Shown piece by piece: positions 31,629-52,158 of a DNA stretch of 64,000 bases. Below the pieces are notes generated by a model that saw only the letters and a program-made list of their open reading frames with translations, searched no databases and was not told the origin of the DNA. Position numbers and translations under genes: made by a program. The stretch spans positions 3,547,001-3,611,000 of the forward strand of contig NZ_CP064356.1 in NCBI RefSeq assembly GCF_018141545.1, in the 5' to 3' direction. Positions within the stretch are counted from its first letter, which is position 1. The number at the start of each line of letters is the position of its first letter. This stretch comes from Miltoncostaea oceani. GTDB lineage: Bacteria > Actinomycetota > Thermoleophilia > Miltoncostaeales > Miltoncostaeaceae.

Positions 31629-32291
31629 CTAGGCTCCGGAGGTGACCGTCTCCAGGTACCGCGCCGCCAGCGCGATCCCTGTGGCCACCGCGCCACCGGT
31701 CGACGCCCCGAGCCGGCGCAGGTCGGCCAGCGCGGCGTCGCGGTCGCCCGCGGCGATCAGCCGGTGGACCGGCTCGGGCGCCGTGCCGCGGGACGCGGCG
31801 AGCAGGAGGAGGGTGGCCGACAGCGCCCCCGTCCGGGTCCGCACGTCCGGCGGGCACAGCGACCGGGCGAGCGCGTCGATGCGCCCGGCGGCGAGGCCCG
31901 CCGCGGGTCCGAGGGCCCGCAGGCCCGCCGCCGCGCCCGCGAGCACGTCGTCGCCCTCGGGGGTGAGACCCGGGCCGCGCCCGACGAGGCGCCCCGCCGC
32001 GGAGGCGAGCGGGACGTCCGGCGGGGCGACCCGCGGCAGGAGCCACGCCGCGAACGCCGCGAACGCCGCGGGGCCACCCGCCAGGGGCGGCACGACGGGG
32101 TCCCAGAGCGGCGGGTCGGCGGGGTCCCACCGCACGACCGGGGCGGGGGGCAGCCGGCCGAGCGCGACGCCGTTCGGCAGCCACGGCACCCCGGGGGCCG
32201 TCAGCGACACCACGAACCCGTCGAGGTCGAGGTGAACCGCCCCGCGGGCGACGCCCACGACCGGCAGGCGCCGCGGCCCGTCGAGCCGCAC
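31629..32291 (-). CDS. allH: DUF2877 protein, oxamate carbamoyltransferase subunit AllH-like
   Basis: The protein of about 220 residues carries the DUF2877 hallmark GPGLTPEGDDVLAGA near residue 110. DUF2877 proteins (E. coli AllH/YlbF) are a subunit of the FdrA-type oxamate carbamoyltransferase, which transfers carbamoyl between oxalurate and phosphate. The other two subunits are at 36035 (AllF) and 50764 (AllG), and a carbamate kinase is at 42961. GTG 32291 is chosen because GGGAGG sits 5 nt upstream. Unlike in E. coli, it is not in one operon with its partners. Confidence 0.82.
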   Translation of the reverse strand: MRLDGPRRLPVVGVARGAVHLDLDGFVVSLTAPGVPWLPNGVALGRLPPAPVVRWDPADPPLWDPVVPPLAGGPAAFAAFAAWLLPRVAPPDVPLASAAGRLVGRGPGLTPEGDDVLAGAAAGLRALGPAAGLAAGRIDALARSLCPPDVRTRTGALSATLLLLAASRGTAPEPVHRLIAAGDRDAALADLRRLGASTGGAVATGIALAARYLETVTSGA

Positions 32292-32324
32292 GGCGACCTC
32301 CCGCGACACGGCGCGGGCGACGAC

Positions 32325-32627
32325 GTGTGGATCGTCCCGCCGCCCGGCACCCGGATCGTCCAGACCGTGGTCATCGGCCCGTTCGTCGTCCAGCACCGCG
32401 AGGATCTGGGGATGGGGGCCTGCCGGCTGACCCGTCACCGGACCGCCCACGAGACCACGTTCGTGGTGATCGCGTACTCGGAGCGGTCGGAGATCGGGCT
32501 GCCCTGCCACGTCGTGCACCTCCGCGACGAGGCGGACGACCGCGAGTACGTGCTCGACACCGGCCTCGCCGGGCCGGGCCTGCCCACGGACTCCTTCACC
32601 ACGGAGCCCGCGGGCGGACGCGGCTGA
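32325..32627 (+). CDS. Small unknown protein divergent from allH
   Basis: This is a 100-codon frame starting at GTG 32325, or 71 residues from ATG 32412, which follows GAGGA at 7-nt spacing. The product has alternating beta strands (RIVQTVVIGPFVVQ, TTFVVIAYSE) and CHVVHL, with no motif I recognise. Amino acid usage looks protein-like, while the opposite strand does not. Real existence is plausible and the start uncertain. Confidence 0.45.
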   Translation: MWIVPPPGTRIVQTVVIGPFVVQHREDLGMGACRLTRHRTAHETTFVVIAYSERSEIGLPCHVVHLRDEADDREYVLDTGLAGPGLPTDSFTTEPAGGRG

Positions 32628-32633
32628 CGGCCG

Positions 32634-33071
32634 CTACCGGCTCCGCCACCCCTTCACCCCGGACGCCCGGGACACCATCCGCCGCTTGATCCCCCACGGG
32701 ATGCGGGCGTAGACGGGCGCGAACACCCGCGCCCAGAACCAGCCCGCCGTCGCGTGCGGCGGCGGCGCCCCCGCGGCGGGGCCGAGGCGGCGCATCGACT
32801 CCTGGAACAACGCCCGCTCGCCGCCCGCCCGCATGAGGCGCGGCAGGCCGGGGCGTGGCGCGACCACCGCCGGGTGGTCGCCGGGGCGGCGGCCGGGGGT
32901 GCCGGCCTTCTGCAGGCCGTCGCGGACGGCGTTCTCGCCGGCGGCGCGGGCCGTCGACCCGGGGGGCGCCGGCGGGGCGGCGGGCAGGCCGCCGCGTCCC
33001 CTGTGGGCGACCTTGTCGTGGCCGAAGTACTCGCGGACCGACTCGGGGATCCGGTCGTCGAGGTGGCTCAC
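32634..33071 (-). CDS. Unknown 145-residue protein
   Basis: The protein starts VSHLDDRIPESVREYFGHDK at GTG 33071, overlapping the stop of the flavoprotein gene (GTGA), so it is co-translated with it. The middle is Pro/Gly/Ala-rich and probably disordered. The C-terminus (TAGWFWARVFAPVYARIPWGIKRRMVS) is aromatic and basic and could lie on the membrane surface. No family or function is recognised; the tight coupling suggests a partner or regulator of the CoA-disulfide-reductase-like enzyme. Confidence 0.65.
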   Translation of the reverse strand: MSHLDDRIPESVREYFGHDKVAHRGRGGLPAAPPAPPGSTARAAGENAVRDGLQKAGTPGRRPGDHPAVVAPRPGLPRLMRAGGERALFQESMRRLGPAAGAPPPHATAGWFWARVFAPVYARIPWGIKRRMVSRASGVKGWRSR

Positions 33072-34396
33072 AGCTGCGCCAGCCCGTTCTGGGCCGCGAC
33101 CGACAGCGGCTCGTAGAGCGCCCCGATCGGCGGCGAGTAGACGTTCTCCATCCAGGCGATGTCCTCGAGGGTCGCGCCGCGCTTGAGGGCGAACGCGAGG
33201 AAGTCGGCGCGCTCCTTGATGCCCTCGCCGCCGACGAACTGGCCGCCGATGAGCCGCCCCGTGCCGGGCTCGGCGAGCAGCTTGACCCGCACCTGCTGGA
33301 CGCCCGGGAAGTAGCGGGCGCGGCTGATGCCGTTGGCGGTGCCGACGACGTACGGGATGCCGAGCGACGTGGCGAGGTGCTCGCCGAAGCTCGCGCCGCC
33401 GATCTGGACCTGCCCGCCGACCATCCCCCACGGGATGTTCACCGGGTCGTACCGGCGGTTACCGCCGCCGGCGTTGGCGCCCGCGACGCGGCCCTGCTGC
33501 ATCGCGTGGGAACCCGTCAGGCCCTGCACGGCGACGCCGGTCAGGCTCTGGGGCACCTCGACGCAGTCGCCCGCGGCGTAGACGCCCTCGACCGAGGTGC
33601 GCATGCGCTCGTCGACCGTGAACGCGCCCGTCGAGCCGACCTTCAGGCCCATCCGCCGGCCGATCGTGGTCTCCGGCTCCTTGTGGGTCGCGATCACGCA
33701 GATGTCGGCGTCGATGACGCCGTCGGTGGTGTCGACCCCGGTCAGGCGGCCGCCGGTGCCGACGAAGCCGGTGAGGCCGACCCCGAAGTGCAGGTGGCAG
33801 CCGAGGTCGGCGAGGCTCTGCTGCACCGGCTCCGCGATCTCCGGGTCGGCGACCTGGGCGAGCAGCCACGCGTTCTCGTCGACGAGGTGGGTCTCGATGC
33901 CGCGGTGGGCGAGCGCCGTCAGCATCTCGACGCCGAGCGGCCCCGCCTCGAGCACGACGGCCTTCTTCACGTCGTTGAGCGTCTCGTTCAGCTCGATGCC
34001 GCGGCGGATGTTCTTGACGAAGGTCAGCCCCGTCAGGTCGTTGCCGGGGACGTCGGGCAGCAGGTAGTTCCAGCCCGTGCAGACGATCAGCGTGTCCCAC
34101 GGCAGCACGTCGCCGTTCGCGGTCATCGTCCGGTTCGCGACGTCGACGTCGGTGACGACGGTCTCGCGCCGCAGGTCGATGCCGGCCTGCTCGTAGTTCT
34201 CGGGCCCGGCGAGGAACAGGCGCTCGAAGTCCGGGATCTCACGGCCGAGGACGTACGGGATGCCGCACGGCGAGTACGCGACGTCCTCGAACTCGGTGCA
34301 GACGACGACCGTCGCCTCGGGGTTCGTCCGTTTGGCCATCGACGCCGCGCTGATCCCCGCGGCGCCGCCTCCGATCACGCAGATGCGCTGGGGCAT
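33068..34396 (-). CDS. FAD-dependent NAD(P)H/CoA-disulfide reductase-like oxidoreductase
   Basis: The 442-residue flavoprotein has an N-terminal FAD site VIGGGAAGISAASMAK and a single redox cysteine in YSPCGIPY near residue 43, as in CoA-disulfide reductase and NADH oxidase. A second dinucleotide motif GPLGVEMLTAL, the FAD motif VYAAGDCVEV, and a C-terminal dimerisation domain follow. It probably reduces CoA disulfide, polysulfide or O2 with NAD(P)H. ATG 34396 follows GAGGAGAG on the minus strand. It lies between AllH and OsmC in the carbamoyl region. Confidence 0.88.
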   Translation of the reverse strand: MPQRICVIGGGAAGISAASMAKRTNPEATVVVCTEFEDVAYSPCGIPYVLGREIPDFERLFLAGPENYEQAGIDLRRETVVTDVDVANRTMTANGDVLPWDTLIVCTGWNYLLPDVPGNDLTGLTFVKNIRRGIELNETLNDVKKAVVLEAGPLGVEMLTALAHRGIETHLVDENAWLLAQVADPEIAEPVQQSLADLGCHLHFGVGLTGFVGTGGRLTGVDTTDGVIDADICVIATHKEPETTIGRRMGLKVGSTGAFTVDERMRTSVEGVYAAGDCVEVPQSLTGVAVQGLTGSHAMQQGRVAGANAGGGNRRYDPVNIPWGMVGGQVQIGGASFGEHLATSLGIPYVVGTANGISRARYFPGVQQVRVKLLAEPGTGRLIGGQFVGGEGIKERADFLAFALKRGATLEDIAWMENVYSPPIGALYEPLSVAAQNGLAQL

Positions 34397-34871: not shown

Positions 34872-36038
34872 TCAGGCCGCCGCGATCTCGTCGTAGAGGG
34901 CCTCGTGGGCGGCGGCGGCGCGGTCCCAGCTGAAGCGGGCGGCGGTGTCCCGTCCCCCCGCCGCGAGCCGGGCGCGCAGGTCGCCGTCGTGCACGACCTC
35001 GACGAGGGCGGCGGCGAGCGCGTCGACGTCCCCGACCGGCGTCATGCGGCAGTCGCGGCCGTCGGCGAGGAACTCGCGGAGCACGGGGAGGTCGCTGACC
35101 ACGCACGGCAGCCCCGCCGCCTGCGCCTCGAGCACGACGAGGCCGAAGCCCTCGCGCTCGGAGGGGAAGGCGAAGACGTCGGCGGCGCGCATCAGCGCCG
35201 GCATCTCCCCGTCGGCGATCGGGCCGAGCACCGCGACGTCGGCGCCGACGGGGGGTCCGGGGCCGCGGTGGACGACCAGCCCGAGGTCGTGGGCGTCGCG
35301 CTCCCAGGCGTCCCGGTAGTCGGCGTAGTCGAAGAGGGTCTCGCCGCCGGCGATGGCGAGCAGGGCGCCGGCGCCGATGCCGGCGCGGGCCCGCGCGAAC
35401 GCGGCGAGCAGGGCCCGGCTGCCCTTGCGCGGCTCGATCCCGCCGATCGCGAGGACCGTGGGGCGCCCGTCCCAGCCGAGGTGCTCGCCCGCCGCGGCGC
35501 GGTCGAGGGGGCAGTCCGCGAACCGCCGGCCGTCGACGCCGTTCGAGATGACGCGCGCCGTGACGCCGTGGTCGCGCCGCAGCACGTCCGCCCAGTGCGC
35601 GCTGACGCAGACGCGGTGGTCGACGTCCTCGATCGAGGCGCGCTGGCACTCGGCGAGCACCGGGCTGGCGAAGTCGTCGACGTGGTGGACGGTGCGCACG
35701 ACGTGCGGGACGCGCCCCTCGGCGCGGAGGGCGAGGAGGGAGCGCGCCGACAGGCAGTCCTCGCTGTGGTGGATGTCGGCGGGTCCCGCGGCGCGCATGC
35801 CCTCGGCGAGCGTCGCCGCGTAGCGCAGGATGCGGGGCTCGACGTCCTCCCCGGGACGGCGGTCGACCGGCACGAGGCGGACCGGCACGCGCGGCTCGCG
35901 GAAGAAGCGCGCGCCGTCGGCGGAGAGGGCCCACAGCTCGACGTCGTGGCCGCGGTCGCCGAGGGCCTCGGCGAGGCTGAGGGCGTGGACGACCCCGCCG
36001 CGCGGCTTGGTCGAGTACGTCACCAACCGGACCCTCAC
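34872..36038 (-). CDS. MSMEG_0565-family GT4 glycosyltransferase
   Basis: The 388-residue GT-B glycosyltransferase has the family opening RLVTYSTKPRGGVVHALSLAEAL (read in parts) and VRTVHHVDDFASPVLAECQ. The donor-site stretch FPSEREGFGLVVLEAQAAGLP has the EX7E glutamates. These features identify the group found in Nit1-type nitrogen clusters of mycobacteria (MSMEG_0565). Acceptor and product are unknown. It overlaps the allF stop (GTGA), linking a Nit1-cluster gene directly to an oxamate-carbamoyltransferase gene. Confidence 0.85.
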   Translation of the reverse strand: MRVRLVTYSTKPRGGVVHALSLAEALGDRGHDVELWALSADGARFFREPRVPVRLVPVDRRPGEDVEPRILRYAATLAEGMRAAGPADIHHSEDCLSARSLLALRAEGRVPHVVRTVHHVDDFASPVLAECQRASIEDVDHRVCVSAHWADVLRRDHGVTARVISNGVDGRRFADCPLDRAAAGEHLGWDGRPTVLAIGGIEPRKGSRALLAAFARARAGIGAGALLAIAGGETLFDYADYRDAWERDAHDLGLVVHRGPGPPVGADVAVLGPIADGEMPALMRAADVFAFPSEREGFGLVVLEAQAAGLPCVVSDLPVLREFLADGRDCRMTPVGDVDALAAALVEVVHDGDLRARLAAGGRDTAARFSWDRAAAAHEALYDEIAAA

Positions 36039-37495
36039 CCGGCGAGCGCCGCGGCGAGCCGCGCGGCGGCGGCGTTGGTCGGCGCGAGCCGGACGCCGGC
36101 GTCGGCGAGCACGGCCTCCTGGCGCGAGCGGACCTGGGGGTCGGCCTCGGTGCCGAGGACGTACGCGACGACCGCGAGCTGGGGCCGGGCGGCGAGGGCC
36201 TCGCGGATCACGGGCGCCAGCACGCCCGCCGGGTCGTCGTGGCTCGAGTACCCGAGCACCACGTCGAGCAGCAGGACGCCCACGTCGGGGTCGGCCGCGT
36301 CGATCGCGAGGCGCTCCGCGCGGGCGGCGGGGTCGATCATGGGGTGGGGCCGGCCGCGGGTGTACTCCTCCTCCCCGAGGTCGATGCAGGCGTGTCCGCG
36401 GGGTTCGCCCTCGAGCGGCCGGGCCCGCCCGGCGGGGGCGTTGGTGCGGACGGTGCCGAGGCGCTCCGCGAGGATCGCCGCGGCCTCGGAGCAGAGGGTG
36501 CCGCCGGAGAACAGGCCGCGGACGTCGCCGCCCGACACCCAGCCGGCGCGCGGCGGCGGGACGGGGGACGCCGGGTGCCCCGCGAGGCCCGCGGCGATCA
36601 GGGCGGCCTCCTCGAGGGTCCCGGCGAGCGCGACGCCGTCGACGGGGTCGACCCCGCCGCCGACCATGCACGCCACGGCGGGGGTGCCGCACTCCGCCAG
36701 CGCCCGCAGCACCCGCCCGGCGACGGCCGGGGACGGGGGCTTCGAGACGCAGAGGATGACGTCGGTGCCGGGGTCGGCGGCGAGGCGGGCGATGGCGTCG
36801 AGGGCGGTGACCGCGCCGACGTCGTCCTTGAGGTCGCGCCCGCCGGTGCCGTAGCAGCGGCTCACCCCCGCCCCCGCCCGGTCGAGGAGCACCGTGACCT
36901 CCTGGGCCCCGGTGCCGGCCGCGGCGACGACGCCCACCGACCCGCGGGCCACCACGTTCGCGAAGCCGAGGGCGACGCCGTCGATGATCGCCGTCCCGGC
37001 GCCCGGTCCCATGACGAGCAGGCCGAGGTCGTGGGCCCGGGTCTTCAGGGCGACCTCGTCGGCGACGGTGACCCCGTCGCTGAAGAGCAGGACGTCCATG
37101 CCGGCGCCGAGGGCCTTGTGCGCCTCGAGCGCCGCGTACTCCCCGGGGACCGAGACGACCGCGACGTCGGCGGACGCGGACGCGAGGCTCCGGGGGCCGC
37201 GGACGGCCGGTCCGCCGGTGGCGGTCGCGCCCGGCGCGCGGTCGAGGACCTCCTCGGCGGCGTCCGCGCCCTGCTCGGCGCCCTCGCCGAGCACGGCGAT
37301 CACCAGGTCGTCGGGGCCGGCGGCGTCGATCGCGGGGTCGGTGATGCCGAAGCCCGCGGCCTCCTCGCGGTTCGCCGGCGTGCCCATGAAGCAGAGGGCG
37401 CGGGTGACGCCGTCGGCGGACTCCGCGGCGCGGGCCGCGGCCATCATCTTCGCGCTGTCGGCCCAGCGGCCGCCGCGGACCCGGACGACGCTCAC
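36035..37495 (-). CDS. allF: FdrA/AllF-type acyl-CoA synthetase-like carbamoyltransferase subunit
   Basis: The 486-residue protein has the two halves of the FdrA family. The first is a CoA-binding-like domain with LLFSDGVTVADEVALK, GPGAGTAIIDGVALGFANVV and AAAGTGAQEVTVLLDRAGAG. The second is a ligase-like domain with GLFSGGTLCSEAA, DLGEEEYTRGRPHPMID and LLLDVVLGYSSHDDPAG. E. coli FdrA/AllF is a subunit of oxamate carbamoyltransferase with AllG and AllH. The E. coli protein is somewhat longer. The GTG start overlaps the decarboxylase stop. Confidence 0.87.
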   Translation of the reverse strand: MSVVRVRGGRWADSAKMMAAARAAESADGVTRALCFMGTPANREEAAGFGITDPAIDAAGPDDLVIAVLGEGAEQGADAAEEVLDRAPGATATGGPAVRGPRSLASASADVAVVSVPGEYAALEAHKALGAGMDVLLFSDGVTVADEVALKTRAHDLGLLVMGPGAGTAIIDGVALGFANVVARGSVGVVAAAGTGAQEVTVLLDRAGAGVSRCYGTGGRDLKDDVGAVTALDAIARLAADPGTDVILCVSKPPSPAVAGRVLRALAECGTPAVACMVGGGVDPVDGVALAGTLEEAALIAAGLAGHPASPVPPPRAGWVSGGDVRGLFSGGTLCSEAAAILAERLGTVRTNAPAGRARPLEGEPRGHACIDLGEEEYTRGRPHPMIDPAARAERLAIDAADPDVGVLLLDVVLGYSSHDDPAGVLAPVIREALAARPQLAVVAYVLGTEADPQVRSRQEAVLADAGVRLAPTNAAAARLAAALAG

Positions 37496-38730
37496 AGGCC
37501 CGACACCACGCGGCCCTCGGTGCCGGCGAGCAACGGCTCCGCCTGCGCGCCGAGCGCCTCGTCGTCGGTCTCGCGGGCGCGGAGCAGGGTCGCGCGGCCC
37601 GCCTCGACGAGCACCGCGCCGGGGCGCAGGTGGATGAACGGGGAGGCCTGCGCCATCGCGTAGGCGCCGGTCTGGCCGATCCACACGAGGTCGCCGACCG
37701 CGAGCGGCGGCAGCGGCACCTCCCGGGCGACCGCGTCGTGCTGCAGGCAGAGCGGCCCGTAGAGGTCGGTGGGGCGCTCGGCCCCCGGGCGCGGCGCGGC
37801 GACCCGCACCGGCGAGCGCTTCCACTGGACACACGGGACCTGGGTGATGCCGACGTCCACCACGAGTCTTCCCCTCCCCCTCTTCGCGACGACACGGGTC
37901 AGCAACCAGCCGGCGTCGCGGATGAGCGCGCGGCCGGGTTCGAGGATCAGCGGCGGGTGGCCGGGGCCGAGCGCGGCGCGCACGGCGTCGAGGTGGCCGG
38001 ACAGCGCCGACGCGGCCGGCCAGCCCCCGCCGAGGTCGAGCCACCGGATGCCGCCGACGCGCGCGGCGACGTCGCGCAGGAGCGCCCCCGCCGCGGCGAA
38101 GCGCTCCACCGGCACCGGGTACTCGACGGTCACGCCGTGGATCGGCGGGCCGGTCGGCGGCAGCGGGCCGAGCTGGTAGGCGCCGAGGTGGATGTGCAGA
38201 CCGGTGAGCGGCAGGCCGGCGCGCGCGAGCAGCGCGGCGGAGGCCGGCGCGAGGCGCGGCGGCACCCCGAAGCGGTCGCGGCCGACCCGGTCGGGCGGGA
38301 TGAGGCGCAGGCCGACCCGGGCCCCGGGCGCCGCGAGGTGGGCGAGGCCGGCGATGGCACGCACCTGCTCGACCCCGTCGGCGACGACGGTCGCGCCCTC
38401 GGCGAGGGCGCGGCGCAGGTCGTCGTCGGTCTTGAGCGGCCCGTTGAAGACGATCCGCGACCCGGGGACGCCGGCGCGGCGGGCGATCCGGTACTCGTGG
38501 CCGGACGCGACCTCCGCGCCGCACCCGGCGCGGTGCAGGCGAGCGACGACGCCCATCAGCGGGTTCGACTTCATCGAGTAGGCGACGGTCACGTCCGGGC
38601 CGGCGACGGCCTGGAACGCCCGCGCCTCGCGCTCCATGCGGGCGCCGTCGAACACGTAGAGGGGGGTGCCGAAGCGCGCGGCCAGGCCGGCGGGGTCCCC
38701 GGGGGGTCCGTCGGGCACGGCGCGGATCAT
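37492..38730 (-). CDS. PLP-dependent decarboxylase, DAP/ornithine decarboxylase fold
   Basis: The 412-residue alanine-racemase-fold decarboxylase opens FGTPLYVFDGARM and carries the Schiff-base lysine K54 in YSMKSNPLMG. FNGPLKTDDDLRRAL, HIHLGAYQLG, LDLGGGWP (PLP phosphate), EPGRALIRDAGWLL and the C-terminal GAYAMAQASPFIHLRP complete the barrel-plus-sheet architecture. The FNGP and HLGAYQLGP segments resemble decarboxylases of siderophore or carboxynorspermidine type more than LysA. The substrate is unknown. It lies between the LLM oxidoreductase and AllF with ATGA and GTGA overlaps. Confidence 0.85.
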   Translation of the reverse strand: MIRAVPDGPPGDPAGLAARFGTPLYVFDGARMEREARAFQAVAGPDVTVAYSMKSNPLMGVVARLHRAGCGAEVASGHEYRIARRAGVPGSRIVFNGPLKTDDDLRRALAEGATVVADGVEQVRAIAGLAHLAAPGARVGLRLIPPDRVGRDRFGVPPRLAPASAALLARAGLPLTGLHIHLGAYQLGPLPPTGPPIHGVTVEYPVPVERFAAAGALLRDVAARVGGIRWLDLGGGWPAASALSGHLDAVRAALGPGHPPLILEPGRALIRDAGWLLTRVVAKRGRGRLVVDVGITQVPCVQWKRSPVRVAAPRPGAERPTDLYGPLCLQHDAVAREVPLPPLAVGDLVWIGQTGAYAMAQASPFIHLRPGAVLVEAGRATLLRARETDDEALGAQAEPLLAGTEGRVVSGL

Positions 38731-40686: not shown

Positions 40687-40688
40687 TA

Positions 40689-40718
40689 TTGACAACTTAG
40701 CACGACCGTTCGTACTGT
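40689..40718 (+). promoter_or_regulatory. Promoter TTGACA-18-TACTGT of the methyltransferase gene
   Basis: A consensus -35 hexamer TTGACA (40689-40694) and -10 box TACTGT (40713-40718) are separated by 18 bp. This is the most complete sigma-70 promoter visible in the window, and an operator fills the spacer. Confidence 0.7.
40700..40715. promoter_or_regulatory. TetR operator A, inside the promoter spacer
   Basis: GCACGACCGTTCGTAC is, on the other strand, identical to operator B at 14 of 16 positions. It lies between -35 and -10, so binding would block RNA polymerase. Confidence 0.65.
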
Positions 40719-40727
40719 AGCGGCCGT

Positions 40728-43893: not shown

Positions 43894-44058
43894 CGCCTCT
43901 ACCTCCTCGTGTACATGGAACCACCAGACCGGTTCGGCGTTCGGGAGGTTGCGCCAAGAGGGCCCGCGGGAGAGGATCCTACCTTCCGAATCGGCGGTGT
44001 CGTCCAATCGGATCGCGTGGACGACGCCGGCAGTGCCATTTCTCCGGGAGGAGCGAAC

Positions 44059-44544
44059 GTGGCGAAGATCGAGGGAATGAAGCCCGAGGCCGGCCAGGAG
44101 CTCTACGACGTCGCGGAGAAGGTCTTCCCCGACATCAAGGCCGAGCCTGGCGAGGAGGCATGGATCTTCATGCACACCGTGCCCTACGAGGGTTCGGTGG
44201 GGCTCGTCAACCTGCTCACGGCGACGCGCCTGGGCCGCAAGGGTTTCAAGGTCAGCCTGGTGCTCTACGGGCCGGGCGTGCTGATGGCGTCGGGCACCCG
44301 CGGGTACCCGGCCGTCGGCCAGGAGGCCTTCCCGGGTCACATGGCGATCAACAACCAGCTGAAGACCCTCATGTCCGAGGGGGCGACGATCTACGCGTGT
44401 CGCTTCGCCATGGGCGCCCTCTACGGCTTCCGCGAGGACGACCTGATCCCCGGGGTCAAGGCCTTCAACCCGCTGGACGTGCTCGACTCCGCGCTCACCG
44501 CGTGGCGGAACAAGGCCTTCCAGCTGAACACCTGGACGGTCTAG
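44059..44544 (+). CDS. Sll0783/MSMEG_0572-family nitrogen-starvation protein
   Basis: The 161-residue protein (VAKIEGMKPEAGQELYDV start; EEAWIFMHTVPYEGSVGLVNLLTATRLGRKGFKVSLVLYGPGV, read in parts) matches the marker protein of Nit1-type clusters. Its Synechocystis homologue Sll0783 is induced by nitrogen starvation and affects polyhydroxybutyrate accumulation. The biochemical activity is unknown; the fold resembles DsrE-like proteins, with Cys in YACRFAMGALYG. GTG 44059 has GGGAGGAG at 6-nt spacing. It heads the operon with 44573, the amidohydrolase, radical SAM and GNAT genes. Confidence 0.9.
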   Translation: MAKIEGMKPEAGQELYDVAEKVFPDIKAEPGEEAWIFMHTVPYEGSVGLVNLLTATRLGRKGFKVSLVLYGPGVLMASGTRGYPAVGQEAFPGHMAINNQLKTLMSEGATIYACRFAMGALYGFREDDLIPGVKAFNPLDVLDSALTAWRNKAFQLNTWTV

Positions 44545-44572: not shown

Positions 44573-45199
44573 GTGAGCGATCGCGACGACATCCTCAGGC
44601 GGTGGCGGCAGGGAGAGGAGCGCCTCTACCCCGTCGCCACCGTCCGTCCCGACCTCTACGAGGCCGTGGTCGGCGTCGTGCGCGCCCTCGCGGACCATCT
44701 CTCCACGGTCCCCGACCTCGACGCCCTCGTCATCACGTTCCGCACCGCGGGGCGTGACGACGAGCTGCGGGCGGCGGGGGTGCGGACCGTGGAGCTGTCG
44801 CCCGAGATCGACCTCGACCTGGTGCGCGACGCCGCATACCAGGTGCGGGCGCGCGAGCTGTCGATGCGCGCCTCGTCCGAGAGGACGGGGGCCGCGATAC
44901 GGCGGGCCCGCGCGGCCGGGGAGACCACCGCCGTGATCTGGGCGGAGGGGGAGCGCGAGCTCTGGCCGCCCTACCGGCGCGTCGAGATGTCGGTGTCCAC
45001 GGGGCGGGCCGTCGCGGTCTCGACCGCGATGGACCCCGACACCATGACGCCGCGCTACGCCCTGGAGGGGATCGCGCTCGACCCCGGCACCGGCGAGGCG
45101 CTCGACGCCGAGCCGATCGCGCCCCGGCGCGAGTTCTCCGACCCCGACGAGTGGCGCGCGGCGGCGGCGGCGCTCCGCGAATCCCTCCTGACCAGCTGA
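44573..45199 (+). CDS. Unknown 208-residue protein of the Nit1-like operon
   Basis: The soluble protein starts at GTG 44573, 28 nt after the Sll0783-like stop. It has an alpha-helical N-terminus (RRWRQGEERLYPVATVRPDLYEAVVGVVRALADHL, in parts), a beta region with VELSPEIDLDLVRDAAYQVRA, and a C-terminal domain with YRRVEMSVSTGRAVAVSTAMDPDT. No cysteine pair, nucleotide loop or membrane segment is present. I know no family for it. Its fixed place between two Nit1-type genes makes it a candidate extra component of that pathway. Confidence 0.8.
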   Translation: MSDRDDILRRWRQGEERLYPVATVRPDLYEAVVGVVRALADHLSTVPDLDALVITFRTAGRDDELRAAGVRTVELSPEIDLDLVRDAAYQVRARELSMRASSERTGAAIRRARAAGETTAVIWAEGERELWPPYRRVEMSVSTGRAVAVSTAMDPDTMTPRYALEGIALDPGTGEALDAEPIAPRREFSDPDEWRAAAAALRESLLTS

Positions 45200-45215: not shown

Positions 45216-46079
45216 GTGTCCCTGCCCGAAGGAATGAAGCGCAACGTGGTCGACGGCCACGCCCACATCGGCGAGATCGAGGCCTGGCCGTTCTACGGCA
45301 TCGACCATCCCGTGAAGCCGATCGTCTACGACTTCCCGCGGGCGAAGGACTACCTCAAGTACATGGACCGGTACGGCATCGAGCGCAGCCTCTGCATGTC
45401 GAACTACGGGATCCCGAAGCCCGAGCAGCCCTTCTCCCTGAACCCCGTGGTGATGGAGGCCGCGACGAGCAGCGACCGCATCCGCGGACTGCTGTGGGTG
45501 TCGTTCCTGCCGCGGGACAAGGAGCACACCCTCGAGGCCCTGAAGCACTGCGGCGAGGCCGGGATCATCGGCCTGAAGACGACGTTCCTGCTGGGGGGCA
45601 ACCCCAACCCCGAGGAGTGGGACGAGGAGACCAAGGCGATCGCCGACATGTGCTTCGACGCCTGCGAGAAGCACGACTACGTCTTCCACTTCCACACGTC
45701 GGCCGGCGGCAACAGCGACATCAACAACTTCATCCCGATGGTCGAGGCCTACGGGAAGCGCTGCAAGATCCACCTCGTCCACTTCGGCGGCGGCGTCAGC
45801 GGCCACATCAAGCTGGTGCCGAAGTTCCTGCAGTGGGTGAAGGACGGCTACAAGGTCTACACCGACACCTCGTGGGCGATCGGGTTCGGGGCCCGCTGGC
45901 TGCTCGTCGAGATCGAGAAGCAGGGGATCGGCGGCGACCGCGTCCTCTTCGGGTCCGACGAGCCGTGGTCCGACTTCATGAGCGAGTACTGGAAGATCGA
46001 GGGCGCCCCCGTCTCCGAGGAGCTGAAGAGGATGGTCCTGGTGGACAACTTCACGAAGCTCCACGAGAAGCACTGGTGA
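45216..46079 (+). CDS. TIM-barrel amidohydrolase in the Nit1-like operon
   Basis: The 287-residue amidohydrolase-2-type enzyme has metal ligands of the short family: HAHIG (HxH) near residue 16, GLKTTFLLGG on strand 4, YVFHFHTSAGG, KIHLVHFGGG, and the catalytic Asp in LFGSDEPWSD. It probably hydrolyses an amide or decarboxylates a small acid. It occupies the position where Nit1 clusters normally have a nitrilase, so it may replace it functionally. GTG 45216 follows GGGAGA; its stop overlaps the radical SAM start (GTGA). Confidence 0.88.
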   Translation: MSLPEGMKRNVVDGHAHIGEIEAWPFYGIDHPVKPIVYDFPRAKDYLKYMDRYGIERSLCMSNYGIPKPEQPFSLNPVVMEAATSSDRIRGLLWVSFLPRDKEHTLEALKHCGEAGIIGLKTTFLLGGNPNPEEWDEETKAIADMCFDACEKHDYVFHFHTSAGGNSDINNFIPMVEAYGKRCKIHLVHFGGGVSGHIKLVPKFLQWVKDGYKVYTDTSWAIGFGARWLLVEIEKQGIGGDRVLFGSDEPWSDFMSEYWKIEGAPVSEELKRMVLVDNFTKLHEKHW

Positions 46080-47245
46080 GCACGACCCGGATCCCGCCGT
46101 CGGACACCGGGTTCGACATCAAGACGCTCGCCGTCGAGCTGCAGTCGCTCGGCGTCCGGACCCGCGGCGGGACCCCCACGGGGCCCGGCGCGACCCGGGC
46201 GGGCGGCGCCGGCCCGTCGGACGCCGGCTTCGTCTGGATCGACGGCGCCCCGCTGACCGTCCCCGTGCACGGCGACTACGTGTCGCGGTCCCCGTACGAG
46301 CTGGTCATGCACAGCTCGGGCAAGGCGGGGCGGCTGCTGCGCGACGGCGTCGAGATCGGCCCGGTGCACCTGCACCCGCGCCCCCGGATCTACGACCTGG
46401 AGACGGCCGACGGGGTGCCGTACTGGAAGATCGCCCTGATGCACCTCGACAGCCTCGCGTCGACGGTGTTCCAGCGGTGCGTCTACTGGGGCACCGACGA
46501 GCAGTGCCACTTCTGCGCCATCGGCACGAGCCTCGCGAACGGCCGGACGGTGCCGGTGAAGACGCCGGCGCTGCTCGCGGAGGTGGCGGAGGCCGCCGCG
46601 CGGCTCGACGGCGCGAAGGACGTGACCCTCACCACGGGGACGCCGAACCGCGACGACCGGGGCGCGGCCTACATGGCGCGGTGCGCCGAGGCGATCCGCG
46701 AGTCGAGCGGCCTGCCGGTGCAGGTGCAGCTCGAGCCGCCGCACGACTTCGGCTGGTTCGCACGGCTGAAGGACAGCGGCGTCGAGGCCCTCGGCCTGCA
46801 CCTCGAGGTCTGGGACGAGGACGTCCTGCGGCGCGTCGCCCCGGGCAAGCACGCCCAGGGACGCGAGCTCTACCTGTCGGCCTGGGAGGCGGCGGTCGAG
46901 GTCTTCGGCCGCGGCCAGGTCTCGACGTACTTCATCCTCGGCCTCGGCGAGTCGGCGCAGTCGGTGATGGAGGGCTGCCGGGCCGCGATCGACCGGGGCG
47001 TCTACCCGTTCGTCGTGCCGCTTCGGCCGGCGCCGGGGAGCATCGTGGCGCACGAGACCCCGCCGTCGGTGGACTACATGCGCGAGGTCTACGAGATGGT
47101 GGCGCCGCTGCTGGCCGACGCCGAGATGCTCAGCCAGGGCGCCCGCGCGGGCTGCGTGCGCTGCCAGGCATGCTCGGCGCTCAGCACGTTCGAGCGGGCG
47201 TTCGGCGGCGGACGCGACGGGCAGCCGGCCGAGGAGGCCGCCTGA
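46076..47245 (+). CDS. MSMEG_0568-family radical SAM protein
   Basis: The 389-residue protein has C135, C144 and C147 in the spacing CX8CX2C (CVYWGTDEQCHFC), not the standard CX3CX2C. This, with TLTTGTPNRDDRG and the AYTLGLGE-like YFILGLGES, matches the MSMEG_0568/Sll0785 group of Nit1 clusters. A second Cys set GCVRCQAC at the C-terminus could bind an auxiliary iron-sulfur cluster. The reaction is unknown. It is tightly coupled to the amidohydrolase upstream and to the GNAT gene downstream (TGATG). Confidence 0.9.
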   Translation: MSTTRIPPSDTGFDIKTLAVELQSLGVRTRGGTPTGPGATRAGGAGPSDAGFVWIDGAPLTVPVHGDYVSRSPYELVMHSSGKAGRLLRDGVEIGPVHLHPRPRIYDLETADGVPYWKIALMHLDSLASTVFQRCVYWGTDEQCHFCAIGTSLANGRTVPVKTPALLAEVAEAAARLDGAKDVTLTTGTPNRDDRGAAYMARCAEAIRESSGLPVQVQLEPPHDFGWFARLKDSGVEALGLHLEVWDEDVLRRVAPGKHAQGRELYLSAWEAAVEVFGRGQVSTYFILGLGESAQSVMEGCRAAIDRGVYPFVVPLRPAPGSIVAHETPPSVDYMREVYEMVAPLLADAEMLSQGARAGCVRCQACSALSTFERAFGGGRDGQPAEEAA

Positions 47246-47754
47246 TGGGCGACCGGGGGGCGGGGGCGGGCGTGGACGTCCGCGTCGCCCGCTCCCCGGA
47301 GGACGTCGCCGCGCACCACCGCGTGCGGCGGGAGGTCTTCGTCGCAGAGCAGGGGATCTTCGAGCACGACGACCGCGACGCCTGGGACGACCACGCCCTG
47401 AAGGTCGTGGCCGAGGTCGACGGGCGGATCGTGGGGGCGGTGCGCCTCTACCCCCTCGACGAGGCGGGCCTCTGGAAGGGCGACCGCCTGGCGGTGCTGC
47501 GCGACGCCCGCCGCCTCCGCGTCGGCGCGCCCCTCGTGCGCTTCGCGGTCGCCACGGCGGGGGGCCACGGCGGCACCCGCATGATCGCGCTCATCCAGCG
47601 TCGCAACGTGCCGTTCTTCGGCAGCCTCGGCTGGAGCGCCATCGGCGCCGAGTCGGACTTCCGGGGCACGACCCACCAGGAGATGGAGATCGCCCTCGCC
47701 GGGGCCGAGCCGGGGTTCGCCCCCGGCGGCTACGCCTGGGCGTACGGGGTCTGA
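47245..47754 (+). CDS. Sll0786/MSMEG_0567-type GNAT acetyltransferase
   Basis: This 169-residue GNAT-fold protein has VRREVFVAEQGIFEHDDRDAWDDHAL (in parts), VAEVDGRIVGAVRLYPL and a C-terminal RRNVPFFGSLGWSAIG region. In mycobacteria the MSMEG_0567 protein joins this domain with an AIR-synthase-like domain; here the two are separate genes, with the second at 49792 on the other strand, as in cyanobacteria (Sll0786, Sll0787). The acetyl acceptor is unknown. GAGGAGG lies 8 nt before ATG 47245. Confidence 0.88.
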   Translation: MGDRGAGAGVDVRVARSPEDVAAHHRVRREVFVAEQGIFEHDDRDAWDDHALKVVAEVDGRIVGAVRLYPLDEAGLWKGDRLAVLRDARRLRVGAPLVRFAVATAGGHGGTRMIALIQRRNVPFFGSLGWSAIGAESDFRGTTHQEMEIALAGAEPGFAPGGYAWAYGV

Positions 47755-47873: not shown

Positions 47874-49844
47874 ATGGGACACATGCGCGAGCGCGTCCGG
47901 CGACGGCGCGTCACGGGGGTCGCGATCGCGGCGGCGCTGGCCGCGGCGCCCGCCGGCGCGGGCGCGGCGCCCGTCGCCCTCCCGCCCGTGGACGTCTCCC
48001 CCGCGGGGTCGTCCGCGACGGCCCCGCGCGCGGGCATGGACGCCTCCGGCGCCCTCGTCGTGGTGTGGCAGGCGCCCCGCGCCGGCGGCCCCGCCGTGTG
48101 GGCGTCGACCCGGCCGCCCGCGGGCGCGCCCGGCGCGCCCGTCGCGATCTCGGCGGCGGGTGGCGGGTCGGCCCCGGCGCTCGCCGTCGCCCCCTCCGGC
48201 GAGGCGGTCGCGGCGTGGTGGCGGGCGGGTGACGCGGGCACGGTGGTGCAGGCCGCCCGCCGTGCGCCCGGCGGCGCGTTCGGCGCGCCCGTGGACCTCT
48301 CCGCCCCCGGCGCCTTCGCCCCCCAGGTGGCGCTCGCCGCGGACGGCGGGGCGGTCGTCGCGTGGCTGCGGTTCGACGGCGCCGGCACGGTGGTGGAGGC
48401 CGCGGTGCGTCCCCCGGGCGGCGCCTTCGGCCCGCCGATCCCCCTCTCGTCCCCCGGTCGCGACGCGTTCGCCCCGCAGGTCGCGGTCGCACCCGGCGGC
48501 CGCGTCGCCGTCGCGTGGAACCGCGGGCGCCCACCCGTCGTCGAGGCGGCGCTCGGCACCCTGACCGACGGGTTCGCCGCGGCCCGGCCGCTCTCGGAGG
48601 CCGGCGAGGACGCCTACGACCCCCAGATCGCCCTGACGCCCGGGGGCGGCGCGCTCGTCGCCTGGACGCGCTCCGACGGGGCGAGCGCCCGCACCCAGCT
48701 CGCCGTGCTCCCCGCCGATCCCGGCGCCGCCCCGGGCGCACCGGTCTCGGTCTCCGCGCCGGGCGCCGACGCCACCCAGCCCCAGGTCGCGGTCGACGCC
48801 GCCGGCGCGGCCGTGCTGACCTGGCGGCGCGGCGCGGGCGGCGCCGAGCGCGTCCAGGCGCTGACGCGGAGCCCCGCCGGGGTGCTCTCCGCCCCCGTCG
48901 ACGTGTCGCCCGCGGGCGCCGGCGCGGCCGACCCGCGTCTGGCCCTCGACGCCGCCGGGCGGGCCGTGATCGCGTGGCGGCGCACCGACGGCAGCGACCC
49001 GCGGGTCCAGATCGCGACCCGCGACCCCGGCGGCGCGTTCGCCGAGCCCGTCAGCGTGTCCGCCCGGGGCGCCGTCGTCGCCGACCCGCGCGTCGCCCTC
49101 GACGGCGGCGGCAACGGCGTCGTCACCTGGCGGCGGGCGACCGGCGACGACGACATCGTCCAGATCGCCGGCCTCGACGACGCACCGCCGGTGCTGCTCG
49201 ACGTGGAGGTCCCGGCGTCGGCGGTGGCGGGCGACCCGGTGCGGCTCGGCGTGCGGGCACGCGACGTCTGGTCGCCGCTCGCCCCCGGACCCACGTGGAG
49301 CTTCGGCCCCGGGGCGGGCGCCCTCGGCGCGTCGATCGAGCACACCTTCCCCGTCCGCGGCACCTACCTCGTGCGGATCGCCCAGGCCGACGCGATCGGA
49401 CGGGTCGCCGTGGCGGAGCGGACGATCGACGTCACCCCGCCCGCCCCGGTCTCGGCGCTGCGCGCGCCCGCCGGGACGCCGCCGCGGGCCGCGACGTCGC
49501 TCCGGCGGCCGGTGGCGCTGCGGATCGGGTGGGGCTGGCAGCGCCGCGCCGACCGGGTGTGGCTGCGGGTGACCGGCACCGCCGGACGCGCGCTGGCGGG
49601 GCGGCGGGTGATCGTCGAGCGGCGCGTCGGGGGCGGCACCCGTGTGCTCTGCCGCGTGCCGGTCACCCGGAGCGGCCGCGTCGCCGGCCGGTGCCGCGTC
49701 GACGCGCTGATGCGCCACGGCACGATCGCCCTGCGGGTGCGGGCACGGGTGACCGCCACCCGGACCACGCGCGCCCGGGCCCTGCCCTACGTCACCCGGA
49801 CGCTGGTCCCGGCGCCCCGGAAGCCCCCGGCCGCAACCCCGTGA
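47874..49844 (+). CDS. Secreted repeat protein (beta-propeller-like) with PKD-like domain
   Basis: The 656-residue protein has a basic N-terminus and signal peptide (hydrophobic residues 14-32, AGAGAAPVA cleavage region). About eight repeats of 48-52 residues follow, each of the form P-Q-V-A-x-D-x-x-G-x-A-V-V-A-W-x-R followed by A-x-R-x-P-G-G-x-F. This Trp-anchored repeat suits a beta-propeller. A PKD-like unit (SFGPGAGALGASIEHTFPVRG, in parts) and a basic beta-rich tail follow. ATG 47874 or 47883 follows GAGGAG. It interrupts the Nit1-like cluster and overlaps the next gene on the opposite strand by 53 bp. Confidence 0.8.
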   Translation: MGHMRERVRRRRVTGVAIAAALAAAPAGAGAAPVALPPVDVSPAGSSATAPRAGMDASGALVVVWQAPRAGGPAVWASTRPPAGAPGAPVAISAAGGGSAPALAVAPSGEAVAAWWRAGDAGTVVQAARRAPGGAFGAPVDLSAPGAFAPQVALAADGGAVVAWLRFDGAGTVVEAAVRPPGGAFGPPIPLSSPGRDAFAPQVAVAPGGRVAVAWNRGRPPVVEAALGTLTDGFAAARPLSEAGEDAYDPQIALTPGGGALVAWTRSDGASARTQLAVLPADPGAAPGAPVSVSAPGADATQPQVAVDAAGAAVLTWRRGAGGAERVQALTRSPAGVLSAPVDVSPAGAGAADPRLALDAAGRAVIAWRRTDGSDPRVQIATRDPGGAFAEPVSVSARGAVVADPRVALDGGGNGVVTWRRATGDDDIVQIAGLDDAPPVLLDVEVPASAVAGDPVRLGVRARDVWSPLAPGPTWSFGPGAGALGASIEHTFPVRGTYLVRIAQADAIGRVAVAERTIDVTPPAPVSALRAPAGTPPRAATSLRRPVALRIGWGWQRRADRVWLRVTGTAGRALAGRRVIVERRVGGGTRVLCRVPVTRSGRVAGRCRVDALMRHGTIALRVRARVTATRTTRARALPYVTRTLVPAPRKPPAATP

Positions 49845-50760
49845 GCGGCTCGGCGGCGAGGTCCCACACCACCTCGCGCACCCCCGCCGACGCCATCCGC
49901 AGCACCCCGGAGCCGTCGAGCACGGCGACCGGCGCGGCGCTCAGGCCCCGCGCCGCGGCGCGCGCGGCGATCGCGGCGTGGTCGCCGACGAGCAGGAACG
50001 CGTAGGAGGGGAACGCGAGGAGCCAGCGCTCGAGGGTGGTCCCGGCCGGGACGGGCAGGCGGTCCATGTCGAGCTCGGCGCCGAGGCCGCCCGCGCTCTC
50101 GCAGAGCTGCAGCAGGGACCCGGCGATCCCGGGCATCGACACGTCGCGCGCGGCCCACGCCTCCCCGGCCTCGGCGGCCTCGGGCATCAGCTCCAGGTCG
50201 GACCGGGCGCGGTCGCGCCGGGGACCGCGGAGGTGGCTGAAGTGGTCGCCGTCCTCCCCCGCCACCATCTGCCCCTCCAGGCAGGCGACGAGGGTCACGT
50301 GGTCGCCGGGCCGCGCGTCGCGCGCCCGCAGCGTCGCCCGGGCCCGGCCGACGCCGAACGTGGAGAGGGCGGGGGCGAGGCCCTCCTCGATGGTGGCGTG
50401 GCCACCGACGACGGGGACCCCGTAGAGGCCGGCGCCGGTGCGCAGGCCGGCGAGGACGGCCTCCGCCACGGGGCGGTCGCCCGCGACGAGGCAGTCGAGC
50501 AGCGCCAGCGGCCGGGCGCCGGTCGCGGCGAGGTCGTTCACGACGGTGACGACGCCCGCGACGCCCGCGGGCCCCGGGGACGCCGCGACGAAGCCGGGCC
50601 GGATCGCCTCGGCGGCCATCACGAGGTGCCCGGCGCCGTCGTCGATCACGGCGGCGTCGTCGCCGTCGCCGCCGAGGGCGGAGGCCACCGCCCCGAGCTC
50701 CCGCTTGCCGCGCAGACCGGGATGGGCGCCCACGAGACCGGCGAGAAGGGATAGGTTCAT
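49792..50760 (-). CDS. Sll0787-type AIR-synthase-related protein
   Basis: The 322-residue PurM/ThiL-fold protein has GDGDDAAVIDDG (nucleotide/metal aspartates) near residue 32, NDLAATGARPLALLDCLV, VVGGHATIEEGL, and MPGIAGSLLQLCESAGGLGAELDMD. These are ATP-grasping features of AIR-synthase-like ATPases such as ThiL and HypE. It is the Sll0787 component of Nit1-type clusters, fused to the GNAT domain in mycobacteria. Here it stands alone on the minus strand, with its ATG 3 bp from the ATG of AllG. The leaderless box TAGTGT lies inside allG. Confidence 0.87.
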   Translation of the reverse strand: MNLSLLAGLVGAHPGLRGKRELGAVASALGGDGDDAAVIDDGAGHLVMAAEAIRPGFVAASPGPAGVAGVVTVVNDLAATGARPLALLDCLVAGDRPVAEAVLAGLRTGAGLYGVPVVGGHATIEEGLAPALSTFGVGRARATLRARDARPGDHVTLVACLEGQMVAGEDGDHFSHLRGPRRDRARSDLELMPEAAEAGEAWAARDVSMPGIAGSLLQLCESAGGLGAELDMDRLPVPAGTTLERWLLAFPSYAFLLVGDHAAIAARAAARGLSAAPVAVLDGSGVLRMASAGVREVVWDLAAEPLTGLRPGASGAPGPASG

Positions 50761-50775
50761 GTCATGGGCACACTA
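50752..50775. promoter_or_regulatory. Interlocked divergent leaderless promoters of the AIR-synthase-like gene and allG
   Basis: TAGGTT (50752-50757) lies 6 nt before ATG 50764 of allG but inside the first codons of the minus-strand gene. TAGTGT (minus, 50770-50775) lies 9 nt before ATG 50760 but inside the first codons of allG. The two start codons are 3 bp apart. Confidence 0.6.
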
Positions 50776-52158
50776 CGGATCGCCACCGTCGGACTGGACC
50801 TCATGGCGGAGGCCCTCCGGGCCCAGGACGCCGACGTCACCGCGGTCGACTGGCGCCCCCCGGGAGGGGGCGACCCGGAGGTCGTGCGGGCGCTGACGGC
50901 GACGTACGGGGACCCCCGCGTCGGGGAGGCGAACGCCCGGGCGCTGGCCCGCCTGCAGGAGGCGCGGCCGATGATCGTCGGCGCCGGCCCGGCGGGGGAG
51001 CTGATCCCCGGGCTCGAGGGCCGGATGGTGCTGCACGCCGGCCCCCCGGTGGAGTGGGAGCGGATGTGCGCCCCGCAGCGCAACGCCGTGACCGGCGCGT
51101 GCATCCTGGAGGGGTGGGCCTCGGGGCCGCAGGAGGCCGCCGACCTGGTCGCCCGCGGTGGCGTGCGCCTCGCGCCGGCCCACTCCCTCGAGGCGGCCGG
51201 GGCGATGTGCGGCGTCATCTCCCCCTCGATGGCGTGCTGGGCGGCGCGCGACGAGATCGGCGGCGGGGTCGGCTACAGCCCCTTCAACGACGGGCCGGGC
51301 GACGCGTTCTGGCTCGGCGTCGGCTCGCCGGAGGCGATCCGACGTCAGCGGCTCATGGCCGACGAGGTCGCGCCGGGCTTCGCGGCGGCGTTGCGGGCCG
51401 AGGGCCCGATCGACGCCCTCGCCCTCTGCGCGCAGGGCATCGCGATGGGCGACGACTGCCACATGCGCCACCAGGCGACGACGATGCTGCTGCTGCGGCA
51501 GGTGCTGCCGGCCATGGCCGAGCACGCCCCCGCCGCGGTCCTGCCGACGGCGCGCCTGCTCGGCGGCAACGGCCACTTCGCCCTGACCGTGACCATCGCC
51601 GCCGCCCGCGCGGCGCTCGCGGGGATCCGGGGGATCCCCGCGTCGAGCCTCGTGGTGTTCATCAGCCGCAACGGCACCGACGCCGCCGTCCAGATCGCCG
51701 GGTTGCCGGACCGCTGGTTCACATTCCCGGCGCCGCTGGTCGGCGACCCCCTCTACCGCCCCGGCTTCTCCGACGACGACGCGGCGCCCGACATCGGCGA
51801 CTCGGCCCTCGTGGAGTGCGCGGGCCTCGGCGGCGCCGCGAGCGCCGCCAGCCCGGGCGTCGCGGCGTTCCTGGGCGGCGGCCTGCAGGACGCGATCGAG
51901 CGGACGCGCCGGATGGGCGACATCTGCATCGGGCGCAGTGAGCGGCTGCGGATCCCCACCCTCGACGGCGAGGGCACCCCGCTCGGGGTGGACGCCCGCG
52001 CCTGCGTCGACCTGGGCGAGACGCCCCTCATCAACACCGGCATCCTGCACCGCGAGGACGGCGGCCAGATCGGGGCGGGCATCGCCGTCACGCCCGTCGA
52101 GCCGATCCGGGACGCGCTGCGCGCCCTGGCGGCGCACCTGGAGGACGGTCCGCGGTGA
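50764..52158 (+). CDS. allG: DUF1116 protein, oxamate carbamoyltransferase subunit AllG-like
   Basis: The 464-residue DUF1116 protein (E. coli AllG/YlbE type) has DWRPPGGGDPEVVRAL near the start and GPPVEWERMCAPQRNAVTGACILEGWA (in parts), a characteristic block in these proteins. Further marks are GDDCHMRHQATT, GGNGHFALTV, SRNGTDAAVQIAGLPDRWF and IGAGI near the end. AllG works with AllF/FdrA and AllH in oxamate carbamoyltransferase. This completes the trio within the window. It starts without a leader and overlaps the following methyltransferase by GTGA. Confidence 0.88.
   Translation: MGTLRIATVGLDLMAEALRAQDADVTAVDWRPPGGGDPEVVRALTATYGDPRVGEANARALARLQEARPMIVGAGPAGELIPGLEGRMVLHAGPPVEWERMCAPQRNAVTGACILEGWASGPQEAADLVARGGVRLAPAHSLEAAGAMCGVISPSMACWAARDEIGGGVGYSPFNDGPGDAFWLGVGSPEAIRRQRLMADEVAPGFAAALRAEGPIDALALCAQGIAMGDDCHMRHQATTMLLLRQVLPAMAEHAPAAVLPTARLLGGNGHFALTVTIAAARAALAGIRGIPASSLVVFISRNGTDAAVQIAGLPDRWFTFPAPLVGDPLYRPGFSDDDAAPDIGDSALVECAGLGGAASAASPGVAAFLGGGLQDAIERTRRMGDICIGRSERLRIPTLDGEGTPLGVDARACVDLGETPLINTGILHREDGGQIGAGIAVTPVEPIRDALRALAAHLEDGPR

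Follow-up and report, generated by a model that had tools for sequence, protein, structure and literature searches.

Carbamoyltransferase and carbamate kinase genes in a Nit1-type gene cluster of Miltoncostaea oceani and related actinobacteria

A 64,000-nucleotide stretch of the genome of Miltoncostaea oceani (4.54 Mb, three contigs), at positions 3,547,001 to 3,611,000 of contig NZ_CP064356.1 and hereafter called the window, carries genes for the three subunits of an oxamate-carbamoyltransferase-type enzyme, AllF, AllG and AllH (together AllFGH), and for a carbamate kinase, interspersed with genes of the Nit1 type. A functional linkage of these two gene sets is strongly supported by their recurrence together in other genomes.

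Genomes and loci

Recurrence was assessed in two collections. The phylum survey is a sample of 396 genomes. The named loci, viewed with 10-kb flanks, are the best 80 of 423 relatives of the radical SAM (rSAM) protein of the window, found when named genomes, short contigs included, were scanned with an rSAM alignment. They come from Thermoleophilia, Acidimicrobiia and Actinomycetes, from several metagenome-assembled genomes (MAGs) that carry other phylum labels, and from one Paraburkholderia; 46 of them are at least 19.5 kb long. Single-linkage clustering of all open reading frames lumped families, and counts were made without it. The term 'type II' is our own label for an rSAM subtype, assigned by sequence signature. 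The nearest named matches of the window rSAM are MAGs titled Actinobacteria, Thermoleophilia and Miltoncostaeaceae (77% identity).

Genes of the cluster

Carbamoyltransferase subunits and kinase. Profile searches placed these four genes where an earlier note, made from the sequence, had put them. AllH (DUF2877; 31629-32519, minus strand), the third subunit, matches PF11392 at 54.4 bits (cut-off 25) and is 32% identical to E. coli AllH over 122 aa. AllF (FdrA; 36035-37495, minus strand) scores 426.4 bits with NF004760 FdrA, slightly below the cut-off of 433, and 119.7 bits with Ligase_CoA (PF00549); it is 40% identical to E. coli FdrA over 495 aa, and its closest solved structure is 3dmy, 'Protein fdrA' (E 1.8e-80). 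AllG (DUF1116; 50764-52158, plus strand) matches PF06545 at 197.9 bits (cut-off 27), with 39% identity to E. coli YlbE, and the carbamate kinase (42961-43893, minus strand) matches TIGR00746 at 364.4 bits (cut-off 358.25), with 42% identity to E. coli YbcF/AllK.

Nit1-type proteins. Four more families named in that note exceed their cut-offs: the MSMEG_0565-family GT4 glycosyltransferase (34872-36038, minus strand; TIGR04047, 391.2 bits, cut-off 259.85), the Sll0783/MSMEG_0572-family protein (44059-44544, plus strand; TIGR04044, 199.2 bits, cut-off 109.85), the MSMEG_0568/Sll0785-family rSAM protein (46076-47245, plus strand; TIGR04043, 418 bits, cut-off 303.7), whose Cys motifs are conserved, and the Sll0786-family GNAT acetyltransferase (47245-47754, plus strand; TIGR04045, 118.1 bits, cut-off 68.45). 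The fifth, an Sll0787-like AIR-synthase-type protein of the PurM superfamily (49792-50760, minus strand), lies where it had been placed, but we call it a divergent relative of its family because it scores 211 bits with TIGR04049, under the cut-off of 321.3. Its relatives in the PDB are PurL, ThiL and HypE. The predicted structure of the Sll0783 protein (predicted local distance difference test score, pLDDT, 81.5) has a DsrE-like fold, the best Foldseek match being DsrE 3pnx (E 1.6e-6), and its Cys114 is present throughout the aligned rows, all 51 of type II (with the window appearing in two of them) and all 10 of type I.

Further members. The earlier picture is changed by parts that it did not name, namely the DsrE-like fold and three more genes. 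u208 (44573-45199, plus strand) encodes a conserved 208-aa protein that marks this type of cluster and matches none of the NCBIfam or Pfam models at E 0.001. Its model is confident (pLDDT 93); Foldseek gave no match at E 0.001 or better, and a second look (VIA) reached Z 6.5 at best, for 79 residues confined to the C-terminal half. It is followed by an amidohydrolase gene (45216-46079, plus strand; PF04909, 59.1 bits), in whose product the metal-ligand-like residues His15, His17, His160, His189 and Asp248 are invariant in the aligned rows. Amidohydrolase homologues also occur in four type I Nit1 clusters (L037, L039, L040 and L042). The third gene (33068-34396, minus strand) encodes a flavin adenine dinucleotide-dependent protein resembling CoA-disulfide reductase (CoADR) and NADH oxidase; it scores 235 and 231 bits with CoADR models, under their cut-offs, and its PDB relatives are 6ruz, 5l1n and 8a56. 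Its single redox cysteine, Cys44, is invariant in 25 of 25 aligned sequences, the window included, and homologues lie inside 25 of the 80 named loci.

Gene order. The All and kinase genes had been read as lying in four transcription units, a fair reading of strands and gaps, and the 4-bp overlap of AllF with the MSMEG_0565 glycosyltransferase gene is real. Overlaps of 4 bp also join a monooxygenase gene to a decarboxylase gene and the decarboxylase gene to AllF, and the start of an aminotransferase gene overlaps the kinase stop by 1 bp. On the plus strand, Sll0783, u208, amidohydrolase, rSAM and GNAT form a single tight run, separated from the divergent kinase gene by 165 bp (43894-44058). This arrangement recurs: in 47 of the 58 named loci holding both, the kinase gene and the u208/Sll0783 operon diverge at a distance of 900 bp or less; the kinase gene immediately precedes AllF in 46 of 48; and in all 45 named loci with both, AllF and the glycosyltransferase gene are same-strand neighbours. 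The AIR and AllG genes are divergent neighbours in 23 of 47 named loci holding both. The shared promoter region proposed for this pair in the window is at best putative, as the nearest starts, 50760 (minus) and 50764 (plus), leave 3 bp between them; one of the two start codons may be misplaced. A TATAGTAGA-like core is common to about 20 of the 48 divergent kinase/u208 promoters (that of the window at 43894-44058 and those of 47 named loci) and is a candidate promoter or operator.

Recurrence across genomes

In the phylum survey the rSAM family had matches in 94 genomes at E 0.001 and exceeded its cut-off in 24. The type II rSAM was found in 13 genomes; one of these, G100, is truncated by a contig end and falls below the cut-off. 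Strong u208 matches occur in exactly these 13 genomes, with a weak one in G085 (E 1e-4). AllG occurs in 50 of the 396 genomes; of the 13 with type II rSAM, 12 have it and G120 does not (hypergeometric probability 5e-11, ignoring shared descent). Genes for AllF, AllG, kinase, u208, glycosyltransferase and flavoprotein recur around the type II rSAM genes.

Among the named loci, AllF or AllG lies near the rSAM gene in 65 of 80, and in 41 of the 46 that are at least 19.5 kb long; at least one of AllF, AllG, AllH and the kinase is present in 71 of 80. The association extends over Thermoleophilia, Acidimicrobiia and Actinomycetes and to MAGs labelled Dormiibacterota (AllF and AllG) and Bacillota (AllF). 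Nine type I loci (L036-L044), which span about 20 kb, carry neither All genes nor the kinase. At five further loci, where the rSAM match is weaker (L057-L061), the rSAM gene was the one cluster gene found.

Since the families are real, co-occur and cluster across distant actinobacteria, the association is not one of chance. That unrelated operons merely happen to adjoin, an idea to which the several units on both strands and the type I Nit1 clusters without All genes lend something, is very hard to believe, as the survey contradicts it with recurrence in the three classes and in the MAGs of other phylum labels. In Pseudonocardia dioxanivorans (L193) the rSAM gene lies apart, yet a second site holds AllG, glycosyltransferase, AllF, kinase and GNAT genes together with a weak u208 match (31 bits). 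At the second site of another Pseudonocardia genome (that of L191) we found genes for nitrile hydratase, glycosyltransferase, AllF, kinase, GNAT, Sll0783, flavoprotein and AllG.

Two outlying groups may be recorded here. The Paraburkholderia elongata locus (L162) has rSAM, GNAT, Sll0783, u208-like and flavoprotein genes plus a P450 gene. Five small genomes from a different genus (g3; L095-L099) of the window's family keep AllF and AllG, and genome searches gave no rSAM or u208 match in them; in four of their stretches the MSMEG_0565 glycosyltransferase gene neighbours AllF, and the remaining one ends in AllF.

Comparison with known systems

Nit1C. The Nit1C cluster (nitBCDEFGH of Pseudomonas, MSMEG_0565-0572 'gpr', sll0783-0787) was first described by Podar et al. 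in 2005 as a conserved cluster of unknown function, as cited in PMC11049912. That source reports that cyanide assimilation in Pseudomonas needs nit1C, and PMC6039565 that nitrogen starvation strongly induces the Nit1 genes of M. smegmatis. The window shares with Nit1C the Sll0783, rSAM, GNAT and MSMEG_0565 families, all over cut-off, and has an AIR-like relative, which is under its family cut-off. It differs in having no Sll0784-type nitrilase in the cluster and in adding AllFGH, carbamate kinase, u208 and the CoADR-like flavoprotein. With the nitrilase missing and the AIR-like protein below cut-off, the window cluster is therefore not Nit1C in the strict sense.

E. coli allFGHK. According to PMC11326118, E. 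coli AllFGH has been shown biochemically to be a carbamoyltransferase that converts oxalurate to carbamoyl phosphate, and its operon-mate carbamate kinase is catabolic. The window has the same three subunits and kinase as this oxamic transcarbamylase operon, with AllF, AllG and kinase 39-42% identical, but the genes are split over four units among Nit1 genes, AllH is much more divergent and AllG belongs to a separate tree group. In a midpoint-rooted tree of 51 AllG rows, 36 rows including the window lie on one side of a branch with support 100/99, and E. coli AllG and other actinobacterial AllG lie opposite. The 36 rows are the cluster-type sequences and those of the five small genomes of the window's family. 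Cluster-type and canonical AllF and AllG have many invariant charged residues in common. In an Actinophytocola MAG (L178), a second AllF and an AllG of the canonical kind, the one AllG found there, adjoin the cluster at 12.8-16 kb.

The window genes might be ordinary oxalurate or allantoin catabolism genes that simply sit in a Nit1 cluster, having the same subunits and kinase as the E. coli operon. A nitrifier AllFGHK set beside biuret genes has been interpreted as serving oxalurate use (PMC12625717). We consider this explanation unlikely: the cluster AllG groups apart from that of E. coli, no allantoin gene is among the annotated cluster genes (allantoin genes were not searched genome-wide), and the physical interlock with Nit1 genes is conserved over many families.

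Nitrilase, nitrile hydratase and coenzyme M genes

In the M. oceani genome the Sll0784-type nitrilase has matches solely at places far from the window, the best of them reaching 215.9 of the 502.6 bits of the cut-off. This cut-off is strict and was passed by none of 22 genomes, type I included. Of 10 type I genomes, 7 have a weak nitrilase-superfamily match within the cluster stretch, as against 0 of 12 type II genomes. Genes for both subunits of nitrile hydratase, alpha and beta, lie inside the cluster in 20 of the 80 named loci, in some of them accompanied by an AmiS/UreI-like gene; no nitrile hydratase was found in the M. oceani genome.

The earlier picture is also altered by these genes, which some relatives have, and by homologues of coenzyme M biosynthesis genes, which many have. 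An XcbA-family gene (NF052538, DUF7714) is embedded in 38 of the 80 named loci, a likeness to the coenzyme M biosynthesis genes of Xanthobacter (xcb) and of the etn/vinyl chloride clusters; XcbD was found in 37, XcbC in 28 and XcbE in 20. The etn cluster also holds a CoA-disulfide-reductase gene, according to PMC8727900. Of the 38 XcbA loci, 36 also contain ComA (phosphosulfolactate synthase), which in 33 lies immediately upstream of XcbA. In the phylum survey the XcbA family occurs in eight genomes, seven of them type II, and in G089 and G169 ComA is on contigs other than that of the cluster. A coenzyme-M-like product of the Xcb-bearing clusters is likely from their gene content. Coenzyme M itself is unproven as that product, because XcbD is over its cut-off of 600 in two of five scored proteins (616 in L141, 605 in L154), XcbC in none of four and XcbE in none of three.

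The window differs in this respect. XcbA has no match in the M. oceani genome (G000) or in the sampled genomes of its family, and XcbC, XcbD and XcbE, sought in the window and the fetched stretches and not genome-wide, were not found in its cluster. A ComA-like gene of M. oceani (L222, 8943-9875; at about 815.6 kb of contig C1) adjoins genes for a LysR regulator and an L-aspartate-oxidase-like protein. As it lies 2.7 Mb from the cluster and XcbA is absent, we make no coenzyme M claim for this organism. The cluster of the window's family carries instead genes for an aminotransferase, a pyridoxal phosphate (PLP)-dependent decarboxylase and a luciferase-like monooxygenase. None of the 80 named loci holds Xcb genes together with the aminotransferase/decarboxylase pair, which suggests that, within 10-kb flanks, the two are alternatives.

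The known epoxyalkane:coenzyme M transferases are members of the MetE family. No MetE-family (PF01717) protein was found in 3 of 15 genomes searched (G028, G089 and G421); in the other genomes the matches are on contigs separate from the cluster or at a distance of over 160 kb from it, the exception being G418 (17 matches), whose cluster contig was not placed with certainty. The embedded coenzyme M genes, and these three genomes, may point to an undescribed use of coenzyme M. Term searches of the literature did not find coenzyme M, nitrile hydratase and carbamate kinase together, nor coenzyme M, cyanide assimilation and thiocyanate, and in the seven papers listed for a wider search the term counts never coupled Nit1 vocabulary with that of the All genes or of coenzyme M.

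One could imagine a route in which cyanide or nitrile nitrogen is scavenged on a thiol carrier resembling coenzyme M. A coenzyme-M-type thiol from the ComA-XcbA-XcbD-XcbE-XcbC set embedded in many members would capture cyanide or a cyano group, aided by the DsrE-like Sll0783 protein and the disulfide- or persulfide-reductase-like flavoprotein; nitrile hydratase would hydrate the bound cyano group to a thiocarbamate, which AllFGH would phosphorolyse to carbamoyl phosphate, and carbamate kinase would save the energy as ATP. The nitrile hydratase, coenzyme M, DsrE and disulfide-reductase genes agree with this version, but the window's own lineage does not: its genome is without XcbA and nitrile hydratase, and a different carrier would be needed there. 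We regard it as decidedly unlikely. If true, it would give coenzyme M a role outside methanogenesis and alkene metabolism and would be a new energy-conserving pathway for cyanide or nitrile nitrogen.

Proposed pathway

Our preferred reading, held tentatively and at a little short of an even chance, is that the window cluster represents one conserved form of Nit1, our type II, in which the nitrogen-releasing end is AllFGH with carbamate kinase and not a nitrilase. Under nitrogen limitation, the Nit1 core (DsrE-like Sll0783 protein, rSAM, GNAT, PurM-like kinase and GT4 glycosyltransferase) and u208, joined in part of the genomes by the amidohydrolase, would act on a nitrogenous substrate to give a carbamoylated intermediate of a ureido or thiocarbamoyl type. 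AllFGH would cleave this intermediate with phosphate to carbamoyl phosphate, from which carbamate kinase would yield ATP, ammonia and CO2. The front end would depend on lineage: many relatives would use nitrile hydratase and/or biosynthesis of a coenzyme-M-type thiol, and the window's family its aminotransferase, PLP decarboxylase and SsuD-like monooxygenase. The nitrogen-scavenging reading is taken because AllFGH and its kinase are catabolic in E. coli and Nit1 is tied to nitrogen starvation and cyanide use; we infer the direction, substrate and nitrogen control of the pathway. The earlier note had the Nit1 pathway feeding or draining a carbamoyl compound, with ATP recovered by carbamate kinase. 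This idea is supported in part: the linkage it implies has stood up to the conditions that the note itself set for refutation, and draining with ATP recovery appears the most economical reading, because a dedicated carbamate kinase lies beside AllFGH.

Several observations weigh against this reading. Carbamate kinase is reversible, and a glycosyltransferase and a GNAT protein are odd parts for a purely catabolic route. AllH was detected in just 32 of the 80 named loci and the amidohydrolase in 29. Nine named loci have neither an All gene nor the kinase (L139, L155, L162, L165, L188, L191, L193, L200 and L204); AllG occurs elsewhere in four of their genomes and nowhere in five, namely Paraburkholderia elongata (L162), the Pseudonocardia genomes of L188, L200 and L204 and the MAG of L165. 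The co-occurrence probability is inflated by relatedness. Of the 48 divergent promoters, 11 match a GlnR-like box with two or fewer mismatches, versus 14.6 in shuffles, which is no enrichment.

The odd parts would suit a pathway running in the biosynthetic direction, in which carbamoyl phosphate is spent: AllFGH would carbamoylate a precursor, the PurM/HypE-like protein would activate or dehydrate the amide, the rSAM, GNAT and GT4 proteins would build a small molecule or cofactor, and the kinase would merely buffer carbamoyl phosphate. The combination of GT4, GNAT, rSAM and PurM-like kinase looks biosynthetic, 38 of the 80 loci have cofactor-type genes (the coenzyme M set) within them, and HypE is among the PDB relatives of the PurM-like protein. 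We still think this direction somewhat improbable, given that a dedicated kinase, as found immediately ahead of AllF at 46 of 48 loci, is a usual mark of catabolic use, that none of the six AIR C-termini examined has a HypE-like C-terminal Cys, and that Nit1 has in other bacteria been linked to nitrogen starvation and cyanide use (PMC6039565, PMC11049912).

What is described of Nit1C chemistry is nitrilase-linked cyanide use. A carbamoyltransferase and kinase where other clusters have a nitrilase would limit the core product of the preferred pathway to one ending in a carbamoyl or cyano group. The pathway is testable in named isolates with the cluster, which include Kribbella, Nonomuraea, Nocardioides soli and Pseudonocardia dioxanivorans.

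Other genes of the cluster

The three genes proposed as the front end in the window's family, which the earlier note likewise did not name, lie on the minus strand. The decarboxylase (37492-38730) is lineage-specific, PLP-dependent and of fold III, LysA-like (PF02784, 69.5 bits), scoring 155.7 bits with lysA TIGR01048, below cut-off. The SsuD-like luciferase-family monooxygenase (38727-39710), also lineage-specific, scores 251 bits with TIGR03565, below the cut-off of 518.2; a tRNA-Arg called by ARAGORN within its gene (38975-39053, minus strand) is probably a false call. The aminotransferase-like protein (41594-42961) is of class I/II (PF00155, 120.8 bits), and none of the 25 NCBIfam models listed for it exceeded its own cut-off.

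Between the GNAT and AIR genes is inserted a gene for a secreted-looking PKD-domain protein (47874-49844), with a homologue, among the loci searched, only in the same-genus genome G075. Divergent genes for a TetR-like regulator and a methyltransferase (40057-41597) also lie within the cluster; in the loci searched the regulator was unmatched and the methyltransferase had no match at the same position. A regulator of another kind, a BTAD/AAA (SARP-like) protein of about 1070 aa, is encoded in L142, L148, L161, L167, L173 and other clusters.

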